Part shown: in pieces, positions 50,512 through 55,996 of the stretch
Numbering within the stretch: the first letter of the stretch is position 1
Layout of the letters: every line of letters begins with the position of its first letter
DNA from: Martelella mediterranea
GTDB taxonomy: Bacteria > Pseudomonadota > Alphaproteobacteria > Rhizobiales > Rhizobiaceae
DNA: 64,000 nt
Reading direction: 5' to 3'
Assembly: GCF_021021415.1 (NCBI RefSeq)
Contig: NZ_JAINWJ010000029.1
Location: forward strand, 1 to 64,000
Made by a program: the position numbers and the translations under genes
Notes under the pieces: model-generated
What the model saw: only the letters and a program-made list of their open reading frames with translations
Database searches by the model: none
Told to the model about the DNA's origin: nothing

Positions 50512-51522
50512 TCAGTTGGCGTTCGTGTCGCCACGGTCCATATGGTCTTGATCCATGCCATGCATGTCGTGGCCGGCATCTTGTGCGGCGATGCTTCTCA
50601 CGGCGAAGGGCACGGTCACCGTGCCGGCCTTTTCGAAGGTCAGTTCGACATCGACGACGCTGCCTTCGGCAAGCGGGCCGTTGAGCTGCATGAACATCAC
50701 ATGCATGCCGCCGGGCGAGAGCGTCACGGTTTCATGAGCCGGAACCGGAACGCCGTCGGTCATCCGGTACATCTTCATCACCTCGCCATCCATGCGCATG
50801 TTGTGAAGCTGCAATTCGCCGGCGGCATCGGAAGAGGCGGCAATGAGGCGGTCGTCGGCATCGCCATTATTGGTGATCGTCATGAAGCCGCCGCCGACGG
50901 GCGCGCCGGGCAGGGTGGCGCGGGCAAAGGCGCCGTCGATCGCGAGATCGCCGAGCGTCACATGGTCCGGCGCCATCGCGTCGTCGTGGCCGTGATGGTC
51001 GTTGCCGCCCTTGGCAGCGGTGACCGTCAGCTTCGGCGCGGGCTCGCCGTCGCCGGCCTCGCCCGTGGCGGTCCAGTGGTTGGCGCTGCCATCGGCGCAG
51101 AGCTGGACGGCGGGGAAATAGAGCGCCGTACCGGGCGCGATATCGGAAGAGAGCGAGCCGCGCATCGCGAATTCATCGTAGTGGGCGTCGCGCAGTTCGC
51201 CGCCCTTCCAGACCACCTCGGTGACCCCTTCGCTGACCGGGCTGCCGTGGTTCATGTAGGTATTGGCATAGTCGCCGGTGACGGTTTCGAGCACCCAGCC
51301 GGCATGCGGCATCGGTTTTACGCTGTAAAAACCCTCCGGCACCTGAACGCGGATTTCGGTGGTCGCCGCGCCATCGCAGCCGTGCGGCACGCGGATAACG
51401 GCTTTGTAGCTGCCGCCGGCGGCCGCTTCCGCGGTTTCAAGCGTCATGTGGGCGTTGGCGGCGGAAAGGCTGGCAAGGCTGATCGCGCCGGCCCATGCGA
51501 GACGGGTCATGAACGTGGTCAT
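50512..51522 (-). CDS. DUF1775 (YcnI) - PCu(A)C copper chaperone fusion
   Basis: A 336-aa periplasmic copper protein. Signal peptide cleavage after AANA exposes His25 (HMTLE), the copper-brace histidine of YcnI. The DUF1775 domain (about 25-165) has VRVPHGCDGAATTEIRVQVP. A PCu(A)C cupredoxin-like domain (about 185-310) follows, with Cu(I) ligands H240, M242/M251 and H274-V-M276 (GGMHVMF). The C-terminus is a His/Met tail (HDMHGMDQDHMD). The two modules are separate genes in many bacteria. The role is copper delivery, probably to cytochrome oxidase (family knowledge). It lies downstream of DUF2946 on the same strand. Confidence 0.9.
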   Translation of the reverse strand: MTTFMTRLAWAGAISLASLSAANAHMTLETAEAAAGGSYKAVIRVPHGCDGAATTEIRVQVPEGFYSVKPMPHAGWVLETVTGDYANTYMNHGSPVSEGVTEVVWKGGELRDAHYDEFAMRGSLSSDIAPGTALYFPAVQLCADGSANHWTATGEAGDGEPAPKLTVTAAKGGNDHHGHDDAMAPDHVTLGDLAIDGAFARATLPGAPVGGGFMTITNNGDADDRLIAASSDAAGELQLHNMRMDGEVMKMYRMTDGVPVPAHETVTLSPGGMHVMFMQLNGPLAEGSVVDVELTFEKAGTVTVPFAVRSIAAQDAGHDMHGMDQDHMDRGDTNAN

Positions 51523-51584
51523 GGAAAATACTCCGTTTGGAATTGTCGTGATTTTACGGACCCTGAAAGGTCCGCTTTGCGAAA

Positions 51585-51992
51585 TCAGACAACAAACGGC
51601 GGTGCGCGCGGATTGTAATGATCGGTGTGGAGGACAAGCGTTGGAGCTTGGTCGTTCACCGTGAATACATGCGCCACAAGGCAAGTGTAAGCCGGGACGG
51701 CATCGTCCGGCGGCGGCGGCAGGATGGCGGCATCCTGGCGGCAGGCATGGCAAGGGCCATGGCTTGCGGCACCGTGATCGGCGGGACCGCTGCCGCAGAC
51801 AACGCTCTGGGAAGAGACCAGAAGCGCACCGGCATCATGGTGTGTCAAAGCCGGCATATAGGGCTGATAGACGAAAGACAGCGCAAAAACGGCGATCGCG
51901 GCCAGTGCCGCCGCCAGTTCCCGCATTGCTGCCTTCAATCCCCGCAAACCCAATGCCTCCCTCTCATCCAGCAGTTCCGCCGAAGCGTGCAT
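51585..51992 (-). CDS. DUF2946-like small membrane protein
   Basis: A 135-aa protein; an internal ATG at 51926 (MRELAAALAAIAVFALSFVY) gives 113 aa and a better fit to the family length. One TM helix or uncleaved signal is followed by a His/Cys segment with CGSGPADHGAASHGPCHACR, which could bind copper. The tail reads TLVLHTDHYNPRAPPFVV. DUF2946 genes usually flank PCuAC/DUF1775 genes or TonB-dependent copper receptors, as here. Function unknown. Confidence 0.7.
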   Translation of the reverse strand: MHASAELLDEREALGLRGLKAAMRELAAALAAIAVFALSFVYQPYMPALTHHDAGALLVSSQSVVCGSGPADHGAASHGPCHACRQDAAILPPPPDDAVPAYTCLVAHVFTVNDQAPTLVLHTDHYNPRAPPFVV

Positions 51993-52078: not shown

Positions 52079-52366
52079 TCATGCGCTGTCTTGAATATTC
52101 ACAACGACCTGCCGGACGTCCTCGAATGTGACATCCGCCATCGCCTTGTGAATGGAAAATTGACGTGTGTCGTTTGGCCCCGCCATCACCAGAATGACCG
52201 TTTCTCGTGGCGGGCAGCCGGGGAGGTGGCAGGCGAGCTCGTTGACCGAGACGATGGTTGCATCATCGATCGCCAGCAGATCGCGCGTCCAGCTCTTGAT
52301 CCTGCGCGCTGCCTCGATGACGCCCGGCTGTTTCCGGGCGAGCGGGTTCACGAACGCATTGCTCAA
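52079..52366 (-). CDS. Conserved 95-aa protein linked to the COG0523 GTPase
   Basis: A 95-aa protein of unknown function beginning SNAFVNPLARKQPGVIEAAR and containing VNELACHLPGCPPRETVILV with two Cys separated by five residues. The start is TTG at 52366, whose TTGA overlaps the GTPase stop, indicating translational coupling. I recall similar small ORFs next to CobW-type genes in alphaproteobacteria but cannot name a family. The Cys pair and position suggest a metal-handling partner. Confidence 0.65.
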   Translation of the reverse strand: MSNAFVNPLARKQPGVIEAARRIKSWTRDLLAIDDATIVSVNELACHLPGCPPRETVILVMAGPNDTRQFSIHKAMADVTFEDVRQVVVNIQDSA

Positions 52367-53433
52367 GCGGTTTTCCTCCTGCTTTTCTTTGAGCGGGCGA
52401 CAAGGGCGGCGAAAAGCGCGCGGATCTGCTGTTGCGGAAGATCCATGCCGATGAGGACGATCCGCGTGCCGCGTTCCTCACCCGGCCATTGCGGCAGGCG
52501 CACGGTCGGGTCCATCCTGTGCTGCACGGCGTGGATCACCATTGGCCTTTCGGGATCGTCGTTGAGCGCAACCAGCCCCTTCATGCGGATGAGGCCGCGG
52601 TTTTGCGGGCTGACGAGAACGCCCAGCAGAATGCCGATCGCATCCGGGTCCAGCGGCGTCTCGCTCGTCAGGTAAAACGCCTCGATCTCGTCGCCATGGC
52701 GATTGGGGTCGTGGTTGTGTTCCGGGTGAGGGGAGAGCCGTTCCATCGCCAGCCAGCCATTGACGTCGTCTGCCTTGTGCGACACCGAGTAGGGCGCGGC
52801 GCCGAACAGCGAGACGAGGTCGAAGCCCGGCGCATGCCGGTCATGAAAGCGCGCTGCCGGATTGAGCACCGCCAGTTCCTGCGCCCAGTTTCGTTTTTCC
52901 TCGGCGATATCGGTTTTCGTCAGGATCACCTCATCGGCAAAGGCAAGTTGTTTCCAGCCCTCGATGAAGCTTGCAAGCGTTGCGCGCCCGTCAATCGTAT
53001 CAAAGGCGGTGATGACGCCTTGCAGATAGAAGTGACGCGCAATGGCGTGGTCGCGCAGCGCAGTCGCCGGCGCGCCGCCCGGGATGAGACTGTTGATGAT
53101 CGGGGCGGGATCGGCAAGTCCGGTCGTTTCGATGACCACCCGGCTGATCGGGCCGATTGCGCCTTTCATCCGGGCCTCGTGCAATTCGTGAAGCGAGGTG
53201 CGAATATCGCTGGTGGCGGAGCAGCAGAGACAGCCGGTCGTGGTGCGAAGGTAGCGTTCCGAGCCGGTGCGGACCAGATCGTGATCGATGGCGATGGAGC
53301 CGAACTCGTTGATGATCACGGCCGTGTCGGCCATGCGCGGATCGTTGACCAGTGCATTGATCAGCGTCGTCTTGCCGGAACCGAGAAAGCCGGTCAGCAG
53401 CGTTACCGCAACAGGGTCGTAGAACTGCTTCAA
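52363..53433 (-). CDS. COG0523 (CobW-like) metal GTPase/zinc chaperone
   Basis: A 356-aa G3E GTPase. Walker A GFLGSGKTT (residues 14-22), the metal motif C-x-C-C in TTTGCLCCSAT, switch segment ETTGLADPAP and the base-recognition motif TKTD are visible. A His-rich insert SPHPEHNHDPNRHGDE precedes the CobW_C domain. The start is TTG at 53433, nine bases after AAGGAG; no ATG is suitably placed. Zur-regulated COG0523 proteins move zinc to client enzymes under zinc limitation; the adjacent AztD-ZinT gene and Zur-like boxes support that subgroup. Cobalamin involvement is unlikely because no cob genes are near. Confidence 0.87.
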   Translation of the reverse strand: MKQFYDPVAVTLLTGFLGSGKTTLINALVNDPRMADTAVIINEFGSIAIDHDLVRTGSERYLRTTTGCLCCSATSDIRTSLHELHEARMKGAIGPISRVVIETTGLADPAPIINSLIPGGAPATALRDHAIARHFYLQGVITAFDTIDGRATLASFIEGWKQLAFADEVILTKTDIAEEKRNWAQELAVLNPAARFHDRHAPGFDLVSLFGAAPYSVSHKADDVNGWLAMERLSPHPEHNHDPNRHGDEIEAFYLTSETPLDPDAIGILLGVLVSPQNRGLIRMKGLVALNDDPERPMVIHAVQHRMDPTVRLPQWPGEERGTRIVLIGMDLPQQQIRALFAALVARSKKSRRKTA

Positions 53434-53533: not shown

Positions 53534-55333
53534 TCAATGCGCGAGCATTTCGTCGACGATCTGGTCGGCGTTGAGCGATGACGGGTAATAGGTCGGCCAG
53601 TTGGTGAGCTCTTCCAGCAAGGCCGCGCGGTCGTCGCCCCAGTAGAGGTGATAGTGATCGGCGTCGGCCGGTGCGATCCGGTGGTCGGAGAACTGGATGA
53701 ACTGCGGCGCGGCTTCGTCGCCGCCGGCCTTTTCGAAGATGAAGCGGACGCCCCTGTTACCCTTGGCATAGGTCAGGATTTCATAGCCGTCGCTTTCGTA
53801 GCGGCCTTCAACGGCCGCGCTATCCCTATAAAAGGTGACCATGTCGCCGTCGATGGTGATGCGCCCGACATCGGTCTTGTAGCCGGTGTCGTAATAGGCC
53901 TTGTATTCTTCGGCGGTCATGCTGCCGGTCTCGGCCTTGTGCTCCATTACCGGGTCGAGCGTGCCGTCCTGAAGATAGGGATAGACCGACTGCCAGTCGC
54001 CTTCCCAGTCGGAAAGCGGACGGTCCGCGATCTGGCTGTCCTCGAAATAGCCCTTGTAGATCTGCGGATCGCCATGATCGTGGGCATGCGCTTCGTGGGC
54101 ATGGGCGTGATCATCGTGCTCGCCTTCATGCATCATGCCGCTGCCGCCGGCAACGGCGATGTTGTAGGGCATGCCGCCGACGTCGATCGTACCGACTTCC
54201 GTCAGGTCCTCCTTGGCGATGCGGCGGACGAGACCGGCATTCGGGTCGCTCATCACGATTTCATCGCCGGCCATGGCGATGCGCGGACGCGGGTCGTTCC
54301 AGTGACCGTCCATCGAATAGGGCTCGGTGACCTTGGCGCTTGTCGTGAGGCTACCGGCCAGAATGTCGATCTGGTGCAGGCTGCCGTCTTCGGTAAGGAC
54401 ATAGCCGAAGCGCGCATTGGCCGGATCGAGCGCGAAGTCGACGCGGCGGAAGGGCAGCTCGATATAGCTGAAATGCGGTTCGCCGGCCGGGTCGATGACG
54501 ACGAGGCCATCCTTGCCGTAATTGCCGAGAAACACCTGCATGCTTTTCGCGCCAAGCAGGGTGCCCGTGGTCTCGCCTTCCGGAAGATCGTCGGGGTAAG
54601 TGAGCATCTCGAAGACGGGGCCGTCTTCGCCCGGGGTTACGGTCAGCACGCCTTCCTGGCAACCGGCGGCAAGAAAGGCGCCGGAGAAAGCTTCGCCGTG
54701 AATGCCGGTGCAGGTGGCGACATCGCCGGTCGGCTCGCCGTCTTCGGTGACGGCGCGCAGGCCGATGCGGGTGCCGTCGACCGGCGTATCGGTGGCGACG
54801 GTCGTGACCCAGTACTGGCCGACGGGGGCGGCAAAACCGTGATGGGCGCGGTCCTGTTTCAGTTCGCTGGTTTCAATCTCGCCATGGGAGAGTTCATGGG
54901 CATCGACGATTGCGGCATAGCCGCCCTTGTCGAAATTGATGACGACCTTGCCGTCATGATCGATGAGATGGAACGGGCGCGGGCCGGTGAGGCTGCCCTC
55001 GATGGCGCCCGGCTCTTCAATGTCGATATCGGTGTGATCGCCATGGGAATGCAGCGAGATTCCGCTGTCGATGAAGTGAACCGCATCGCTGTCCGACTGC
55101 ACGGCGACAATGGCCGCGCCGTCATCGACCGCGTAGAGCTTGTTCTGGCCGGCGGTGTCGAAGGACCAGCGATGGTCGGGTTCGGCAAGGTCGAAGGCCG
55201 TGACCTTGGCGTCAGCATGGTCCCCGACGAAAACCCTGTAGAGGGTGACGCTGTCCTCGTGGTCCTCGGCGAAGGCCGCCGATGCACCGAGCGAAATCGC
55301 GAGTGCGGATGCACCCAGGATCCATTGTTTCAT
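53534..55333 (-). CDS. AztD-type zinc metallochaperone fused to a ZinT domain
   Basis: A 599-aa periplasmic protein; signal peptide ends ASAAFA. Residues about 25-400 form an AztD-like propeller: VTLYRVFVGDHADAKVTAFD, SGISLHSHGDHTDIDIEEPG, TGIHGEAFSGAFLAAGCQEG, QVFLGNYGKDGLVVIDPAGE. A linker at 402-420 has eight His in 19 residues. The last ~175 residues are a complete ZinT domain: LSDWEGDWQSVYPYLQDGTL, GYEILTYAKGNRGVRFIFEK, FIQFSDHRIAP and zinc ligands in ADHYHLYWG (H560, H562), ending NWPTYYPSSLNADQIVDEML. AztD normally feeds zinc to the AztC binding protein; ZinT buffers zinc. The two are usually separate proteins. The start at 55333 has AAGGAG. Confidence 0.9.
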   Translation of the reverse strand: MKQWILGASALAISLGASAAFAEDHEDSVTLYRVFVGDHADAKVTAFDLAEPDHRWSFDTAGQNKLYAVDDGAAIVAVQSDSDAVHFIDSGISLHSHGDHTDIDIEEPGAIEGSLTGPRPFHLIDHDGKVVINFDKGGYAAIVDAHELSHGEIETSELKQDRAHHGFAAPVGQYWVTTVATDTPVDGTRIGLRAVTEDGEPTGDVATCTGIHGEAFSGAFLAAGCQEGVLTVTPGEDGPVFEMLTYPDDLPEGETTGTLLGAKSMQVFLGNYGKDGLVVIDPAGEPHFSYIELPFRRVDFALDPANARFGYVLTEDGSLHQIDILAGSLTTSAKVTEPYSMDGHWNDPRPRIAMAGDEIVMSDPNAGLVRRIAKEDLTEVGTIDVGGMPYNIAVAGGSGMMHEGEHDDHAHAHEAHAHDHGDPQIYKGYFEDSQIADRPLSDWEGDWQSVYPYLQDGTLDPVMEHKAETGSMTAEEYKAYYDTGYKTDVGRITIDGDMVTFYRDSAAVEGRYESDGYEILTYAKGNRGVRFIFEKAGGDEAAPQFIQFSDHRIAPADADHYHLYWGDDRAALLEELTNWPTYYPSSLNADQIVDEMLAH

Positions 55334-55345
55334 ATCCGTCTCTCC

Positions 55346-55363
55346 TTGATGGTATAACATAAC
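55346..55363 (-). promoter_or_regulatory. Candidate Zur box next to the aztD-zinT ribosome site
   Basis: On the minus strand GTTATGTTATACCATCAA matches 15 of 18 positions of the Zur palindrome GTTATGTTATAACATAAC (consensus from memory). It abuts the ribosome site, 12 bases before the start codon, so bound Zur would block transcription or early elongation. Confidence 0.5.
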
Positions 55364-55402: not shown

Positions 55403-55645
55403 TCAGCCCTTGTTGATGGCGGCGGCGAGCGTTTCGACTTTGTGTTGCAGCATGTCGAGATAACTCGGCGCGGGACCGTTGGCTGAAGACAACGCATCCG
55501 AATAAAGTGTTCCGGATTTCCGTTCTCTACCGCCGATGACTGCTATCAGGCCGCCCTTGCCGACATCCCCGGTCAGGTCATGCACGGCCGTATGTCGGGC
55601 ATATCCAGGCGCAAGATCGCAAAAGTTCAGGCAAGCCTCGGTCAT
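55403..55645 (-). pseudogene. Chimeric aztA-aztC deletion scar
   Basis: An 80-codon frame. Its first half, MTEACLNFCDLAPGYARHTA then VHDLTGDVGKGGLIAVIGG, is the start of an ABC ATPase of the AztA type and stops just where Walker A (GPNGAGKST) should follow. It then jumps, with no frameshift, to SGTLYSDALSSANGPAPSYL and DMLQHKVETLAAAINKG, the C-terminus of a ZnuA/AztC zinc-binding protein. In the known order aztA-aztB-aztC-aztD, an internal deletion would join exactly these ends. The junction is near 55528. Neither half can function. A TTG nine codons upstream is an alternative start. Confidence 0.75.
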
Positions 55646-55676
55646 CGAAAGCCTCTCACTCCGGTGCGGCAAATAA

Positions 55677-55694
55677 GTAATGTAATATCATTAC
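55677..55694. promoter_or_regulatory. Zur box upstream of the azt remnant
   Basis: GTAATGTAATATCATTAC has perfect GTAATG/CATTAC arms and closely resembles alphaproteobacterial Zur sites (recalled form GTAATGTAATAACATTAC). It lies 31 bases upstream of the remnant's ATG and is the expected promoter operator of the original azt operon. It may still drive aztD-zinT, the GTPase and the copper genes. Confidence 0.7.
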
Positions 55695-55695
55695 G

Positions 55696-55996
55696 ATTAT
55701 CGAAGCGACGATGCGAAGGCAACCGCTTTTTCCGCCTTGTTGAAAACCTGCCTCGGGTTTCAGAGTCGCGCCCGAAAATAGGGGCGCCGGCCGTGTGGAT
55801 TTGCTTCACTGCGGAAATTTCCGCGCACCCTTCCGCATGCCGGCTCCCACGCCGCATCTCTGTCTCGGCCATCGCAGCGTTTCCCGGAGCCGAACACCCG
55901 CTTTTTTAGGCTGCCATCGCTGGGGACATTCATGCCGCCGTCAAGAAAGCCCTGTAGGGTCGATCCTGTAATGCTATTAAATTACGAGGACCTTTC
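55696..55996. other. Divergent intergenic region between azt remnant and phoX
   Basis: About 300 bases. No gene is supported. CTGTAGG at 55952 and CTGTAAT at 55966 are 14 bp apart, which does not match the 11-bp period of a Pho box. The phoX ribosome site GAGGA lies at 55986-55990. Confidence 0.4.

Follow-up and report, generated by a model that had tools for sequence, protein, structure and literature searches.

The 64,000-nucleotide stretch of Martelella mediterranea DNA analysed here (the window) contains, on its reverse strand, an aztD-zinT fusion gene (53534-55333) that encodes an AztD-type zinc metallochaperone and a ZinT domain in a single chain of 599 aa. The gene runs in one frame from its ATG at 55333, with no internal stop. 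Based on its signal peptide and domains, the product is predicted to be, in all likelihood, a secreted, periplasmic, two-domain zinc-binding protein. The reading that we prefer, with moderate confidence, is that it acts as a periplasmic zinc scavenger under zinc starvation and that its zinc is now handed to ZnuA.

Domains, ligands and the joint

A signal peptide recognized by eye (residues 1-22, MKQWILGASALAISLGASAAFA; 55268-55333, reverse strand) is followed by the AztD domain (residues 36-397; 54143-55228, reverse strand), which matched the whole of profile NF038015 (1-356 of 356, 1.4e-116, 389.1 bits). Its score lies below the naming cut-off of 400 bits, a line that falls inside the clade (405.7 bits for Paracoccus denitrificans AztD, 396.1 for the AztD stretch of P. 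versutus, 376.9 for the M. radicis fusion and 438.2 for the Mangrovicella fusion) and that we treated as a naming threshold rather than a biological feature. P. denitrificans AztD (6CK1) aligned with residues 4-402 (9.7e-180), and the ligands mapped from it are H122, H165 and H212 for site 1 and H97, H100, D102 and H402 for site 2.

The ZinT domain (residues 424-599; 53537-54064, reverse strand) was matched by PF09223 over profile positions 4-181 of 181 (2.4e-83, 278.9 bits versus a cut-off of 27). It missed the 300-bit cut-off of PRK10306, the NCBIfam ZinT equivalog (225.9 bits), as did a standalone Paracoccus ZinT (227.7 bits). It contains H551, H560 and H562, which we take to be the three-His metal ligands of E. 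coli ZinT. The three matches in a single frame confirmed an earlier sequence-only reading, which had proposed one 599-aa chain with ZinT at residues 425-599, and the eight histidines that it had counted in residues 402-420, as well as H560 and H562, are present. The ten ligand positions (seven in AztD, three His in ZinT) were invariant in 61/61 fused proteins, a count that leaves out partial, broken and repeated copies; the site-1 and site-2 ligands were also kept in 51/51 standalone AztDs. The fusion is the only AztD match and the only ZinT match in the window's genome.

The two domains are connected by a His-rich joint (residues 402-423; 54065-54130, reverse strand) that begins at the site-2 ligand H402. 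The equivalent of H402, the C-terminal site-2 ligand, is the last residue of 38 of the 51 standalone AztDs, the other 13 extending by 1 to 19 residues; the fusion continues onward from this last site-2 His. Since H402 is a site-2 ligand and, according to the accessible part of PMC6689063, zinc passes to AztC from site 2, ZinT is attached at the delivery site of AztD itself. The joint has a median length of 22 residues (9-39) with a median of 7 His (4-12), and in 37 fused sequences H418 was invariant and H416 and H420 were conserved in at least 90%. A His tract also preceded the domain in 12 of 13 standalone ZinTs lying outside the fused lineage (the listed sequence of the thirteenth, L153, is cut short), which makes the 'linker' probably the His-rich N-terminus of ZinT itself. 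The sequence-only reading had described a His relay at this place: the His-rich tract stands, but its interpretation as a relay had to be corrected.

An AlphaFold2 model built from 37 fused sequences had a mean pLDDT of 78, with values mostly above 90 in the propeller, below 50 at residues 405-445 and roughly 40-90 in ZinT. This prediction, which the sequence-only reading had suggested making, recovered the AztD propeller fold, matched by Foldseek to 6CK1 (TM 0.97 over the target, about 67% identity). The matches to E. coli ZinT (4TNN/5AQ6) superposed poorly (rmsd >10 Å, target TM about 0.55), so that the assignment of the ZinT fold rests on sequence. The relative orientation of the two domains is unreadable from the model.

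Distribution and lineage history

Among the best 80 of 258 loci, 50 contained both domains in one frame, 2 had them in different frames (L087, L113), 27 had AztD alone and 1 had ZinT alone; the 50 include one locus in which the match is a partial AztD (L086) and one that breaks inside ZinT (L072). The genera represented in this same set include Martelella, Agrobacterium, Rhizobium, Neorhizobium, Aureimonas, Stappia, Labrenzia, Devosia, Phyllobacterium, Mesorhizobium, Nitratireductor, Pleomorphomonas and some Paracoccus. The count of lineages proposed by the sequence-only reading gave, for 394 genomes of the window's family, AztD in 117, ZinT in 84 and the one-frame fusion in 29, belonging to 15 genera; three more genomes (G134, G272, G336) carried broken or partial fusions. 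Four genomes of the window's genus had neither AztD nor ZinT. We also considered an occurrence outside Alphaproteobacteria: among 398 genomes sampled phylum-wide (24 with ZinT, 25 with AztD) the one-frame fusion was found only in the window's own genome, though rare cases elsewhere may exist.

Eight plasmid records held matches covering 80% or more of the query, some of them conjugative by typing. On the conjugative plasmid of Rhizobium sp. Q54, the fusion gene (L005:6935-8767) has annotated floR-type and beta-lactamase genes within a few kb. Atu1049 is reportedly the ZinT described for A. tumefaciens. Its identity with the fusion was set aside on genus-level counts: in 39 genomes of the genus of Agrobacterium salinitolerans, a separate ZinT frame was present in 35 versus a fusion frame in 6 (one of them broken), with both in 3. 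Database records call the fused proteins either 'metal-binding protein ZinT' or 'zinc metallochaperone AztD'; each name hides the other half, and the family needs a name.

In a tree of the AztD domain (110 rows, of which 60 were labelled fused and 50 standalone; quick method), the labels required 11 changes, and at least 8 when counted by starred branches. In the ZinT-domain tree (80 rows, bootstrap not settled), a 100/98 branch separated 13 standalone ZinTs from all 66 fused domains and one further standalone ZinT, L133. Apart from including this standalone protein, the fused ZinT tails thus make up a single lineage, carried on strongly diverged AztD clades. Mean path lengths in 59 fused proteins were 0.50 for AztD and 0.65 for ZinT within AztD clade 1, and 1.25 and 0.43 within clade 2; between the clades they were 3.00 for AztD and 0.79 for ZinT, where the clade-1 slope predicts 3.7. 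Holding the 45 clade-1 tails together in the ZinT tree was disfavoured (p 0.031), the clade labels needed 5 changes, and the tails of L053 and L030 were closest to the opposite AztD clade. Because a single tail lineage sits on such diverged AztD clades, it was probably passed or swapped between aztD genes, a reading of the trees to be taken with caution given the unequal rates of the two clades.

A strictly fused-only ZinT clade was rejected (p 0.033), L133 lying within. This standalone protein (L157:5237-6136) has the His tract and its own signal-like N-terminus and is encoded beside zigA; judging from these features, it is probably a fission product of the fusion.

The deleted aztABC locus and the Zur-like boxes

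Upstream of the fusion gene, the window contains a deletion scar that the sequence-only reading had overlooked (55403-55645, reverse strand), in which the start of aztA (55529-55645) is joined in frame to the end of aztC (55415-55516), aztB being absent. In the numbering of the query proteins, codons 1-39 of aztA are joined to codons 273-306 of aztC, and about 2.4 kb are missing by comparison with the intact locus L155. The window's genome has no other aztB, its best AztB match having 31% identity. It has therefore lost aztABC, and the fusion gene has outlived the transporter usually encoded beside it.

Other Martelella-type genomes show this locus in different states. M. radicis (L043) and G317 (L155) keep aztABC, with the fusion behind aztA-aztB-aztC and, in L155, an AztC above its NCBIfam cut-off (371.8 versus 350). 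G383 (L156:7099-7526) has two other gaps of about 0.6 and 1.6 kb, and L087 (5060-5919) a single gap of about 1.7 kb, at whose joint the two matches share 11 bases, as would fit the involvement of a short repeat. The window, L156 and L087 thus represent three different sets of junctions. Internal deletions of aztABC recurred and differed from locus to locus; they spared the beginning of aztA, the end of aztC and the aztD or aztD-zinT gene that follows. Remnants of this type were also observed outside the Martelella group, in A. bohemicum (L048:940-1235), in L056:5537-5887 and, with a standalone AztD, in P. gahaiensis (L097:5382-5968); in L095 and L116, aztA and aztB are mostly gone, with all or most of aztC still present.

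Among the 52 fusion loci in the best 80 of 258 (50 in frame and 2 broken), 19 had aztA-aztB-aztC upstream on the same strand. In the other 33, we found aztA-aztB-aztC on the opposite strand in 1 (L082), aztC alone in 11, a partial set in 7 and none in 14, these classes being read by eye and the last ones being upper limits, as some flanks stop at a contig end. At the level of genomes (a non-random sample from the best 80 of 258 loci, minus L065, L105, L113 and L118), AztB of at least 70% identity was present in 24 fusion and 7 standalone genomes, and one fusion genome had a match of 67%. Matches of 54-60%, which may represent another transporter, were found in 11 fusion and 2 standalone genomes. 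AztB of at least 50% was absent from 14/50 fusion genomes and from 17/26 genomes with standalone AztD. A scarred locus is no proof of genome-wide loss: G778 (L045) has one together with a 75% AztB on another contig.

We considered the possibility that the ZinT tail permits the loss of aztABC. Yet the trend in these genomes was the opposite, absence of AztB being commoner with standalone AztD, which indicates that the tail is not needed to retain AztD without aztABC. This non-specific loss of the transporter weakens a simple story in which ZinT rewires AztD. In Chelativorans, the standalone aztD of three loci (L115, L117 and L121, around 3.1-7.2 kb) adjoins an ABC transporter of another kind (AztB about 31%, AztC about 29%), and AztD may accordingly serve receivers other than AztC.

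Two Zur-like boxes are predicted at the azt locus: one upstream of the scar (55676-55695, reverse strand) and one, with 2 mismatches to the 14-base core, directly upstream of the fusion gene (55347-55360, no strand assigned). The core occurs twice in the 64 kb versus 0.06 expected, before the scar and before a divergent phoX-type gene, and a related site with 4 mismatches lies between znuA and znuC (L159). With up to 3 mismatches, the core was found upstream of the fusion gene in 18/31 loci (30 hand-chosen among the 52 fusion loci from the best 80 of 258, and the window), in 0/30 in-gene stretches and in 13/620 shuffles. The box on the fusion side is weak, and is missing in 13/31 loci at the same threshold. 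These predicted boxes are suggestive of Zur control of the fusion, the core having been derived from other boxes after the locus had been viewed. The accessible part of PMC5387054 reports no Zur box in the aztC-aztD gap of P. denitrificans.

The divergent gene encodes a PhoX alkaline phosphatase (PF05787; 55997-57889, forward strand), with its Zur-like box (55967-55986) 10 bases before the start. The same pairing is present in M. radicis (L043) and L087, and PhoX could serve as a zinc-sparing phosphatase controlled by Zur; our literature search returned no relevant paper on PhoX with Zur-like control. Immediately downstream of the fusion is a gene for a CobW/COG0523-type GTPase (52363-53433, reverse strand; PF02492 and CobW_C), which also adjoins the fusion in L043 and L156. 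The window contains a second metallochaperone fusion (50515-51591, reverse strand), in which DUF1775 (YcnI type) and the copper chaperone PCuAC share one frame; homologues are found close to the azt locus in L043, L044, L155 and L156.

Proposed working and known systems

In the scheme that we propose, the fusion would have originated when a ZinT coding region, including its His-rich N-terminus, was joined to the C-terminal His of AztD. Under zinc starvation, Zur repression would be lifted and the protein exported; the propeller with its two sites, the His tract and ZinT would gather and buffer periplasmic zinc, and a cluster A-I binding protein would then receive it. Where relatives have aztABC, the natural receiver would be AztC, and in the window's genome the ZnuA of an intact ZnuABC, most plausibly via the ZinT domain.

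ZnuA is a likely receiver because aztABC is deleted in this genome. It is encoded at L004:1420-2406, divergently from znuCB, has a long His loop and scores above its NCBIfam cut-off (270.8 versus 268). The other remaining receiver is an Mn/Fe-type binding protein (L003) that passes no naming cut-off, and ZnuA is the likeliest of those left. According to the accessible part of PMC6689063, ZinT contacts ZnuA in Salmonella, metal transfer from ZinT to ZnuA being not yet shown as of that paper. As far as the available sources go, the ZnuA of P. denitrificans receives no zinc from the AztD of that species, so that the ZnuA step of our scheme rests on the ZinT domain. The sequence-only reading had thought that a dedicated binding protein might become unnecessary. 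This idea is unsupported in view of the 19/52 loci (best 80 of 258) that have aztA-aztB-aztC, the intact ZnuA of this genome and growth data in the accessible part of PMC7731109, where AztD was unable to support growth in zinc-limited medium without binding proteins and raised zinc accumulation.

The same data are compatible with a passive periplasmic zinc store, the two halves only buffering and ZnuA taking released zinc from solution; AztD is also kept in the 17/26 standalone genomes without AztB of at least 50% (best 80 of 258 loci). We give this explanation limited credence, as the site-2 and ZinT ligands do not vary in any of the 61 fused proteins and direct transfer of zinc from AztD to AztC has been demonstrated, according to the parts of the literature available. 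Still less probable is that the fusion is a relic on its way to loss after the disappearance of aztABC. The upstream genes are deleted in the window, L156 and L087, the L087 fusion is split between frames, and the four genomes of the genus devoid of both domains would fit as well. Yet the window's copy has an undamaged frame, signal peptide and set of ligands, and its comparison with the L156 copy, beside a different scar, gave dN/dS values of 0.10 and 0.12, pairwise values that include the time before the deletions. In the ten pairwise comparisons among five Martelella-type genes, of which two adjoin different scars, dN/dS was 0.08-0.19 for AztD and 0.12-0.24 for ZinT, and the fusion is thus under purifying selection within the genus. 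A sequencing or assembly artefact joining two genes, such as the frame error at 54050-54130 envisaged by the sequence-only reading, is refuted by the recurrence of the same joint, in one frame, in 50/80 named loci (best 80 of 258) and 29/394 family genomes, and nothing was found in its favour.

Returning to the scavenger that delivers to ZnuA, we can tentatively extend it, at the price of a rather doubtful step: the ZinT tail would be a swappable adaptor between diverged aztD genes, with ZnuA as second receiver, and aztABC would have become dispensable, and been repeatedly deleted, because the fusion had its own outlet and promoter. Co-evolution of AztC, as a longer His loop beside fused AztD, was not borne out: the median was 4 His in 28 fused versus 4 in 8 standalone loci, the 28 being distinct loci with a parsable motif while many other AztCs went unparsed. 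The fusion bears on how periplasmic zinc chaperones pick the receiving binding protein: it is a natural tether of a ZnuA-contacting chaperone at an AztC-specific delivery site, which makes the choice of receiver testable by domain deletions. A ready comparison is offered by the closely related Martelella-type genomes, in which aztABC is intact, scarred or absent.

The sequence-only reading knew of no characterised AztD-ZinT fusion, and in agreement with this we found no description in the literature searched, which largely leaves aside subscription papers and supplements. The fusion is unmentioned in the accessible text of PMC6689063, PMC7463823, PMC12183173, PMC7731109, PMC7029138, PMC5387054, PMC9731437 and PMC6103462; a cited survey of 577 AztD sequences must have included fusions. 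New here are the continuation of the fusion from H402, with a joint that resembles the N-terminus of ZinT, the shared lineage of the tails, the aztABC scar and the Zur-like boxes before scar and fusion.

Among known systems, AztD of P. denitrificans (6CK1) shares the whole propeller, the seven ligands and, with many relatives of the fusion, the position after aztC. Unlike the fusion it ends at the site-2 His, without a ZinT domain, and its trait of being encoded with aztABC does not apply in the window, where these genes are deleted. The AztD of Citrobacter koseri (6CMK) resembles the fusion by a His-rich tail after the propeller, but has no ZinT domain and 40% identity. With ZinT (YodA) of E. 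coli and Salmonella, the fusion has in common the whole ZinT domain with its H-x-H site; this ZinT is a separate exported protein, whereas in the fusion it is a C-terminal domain without a signal peptide of its own. In AdcA of streptococci (7JJ9), ZinT is also the C-terminal domain of a zinc-handling protein. An AdcA-type binding domain is absent from the fusion, NF033605 matching only over its ZinT part (324-517 of 517) and Pfam giving ZinT alone: the N-terminal partner of ZinT is a ZnuA-like ABC binding protein in AdcA and the AztD propeller in the fusion.
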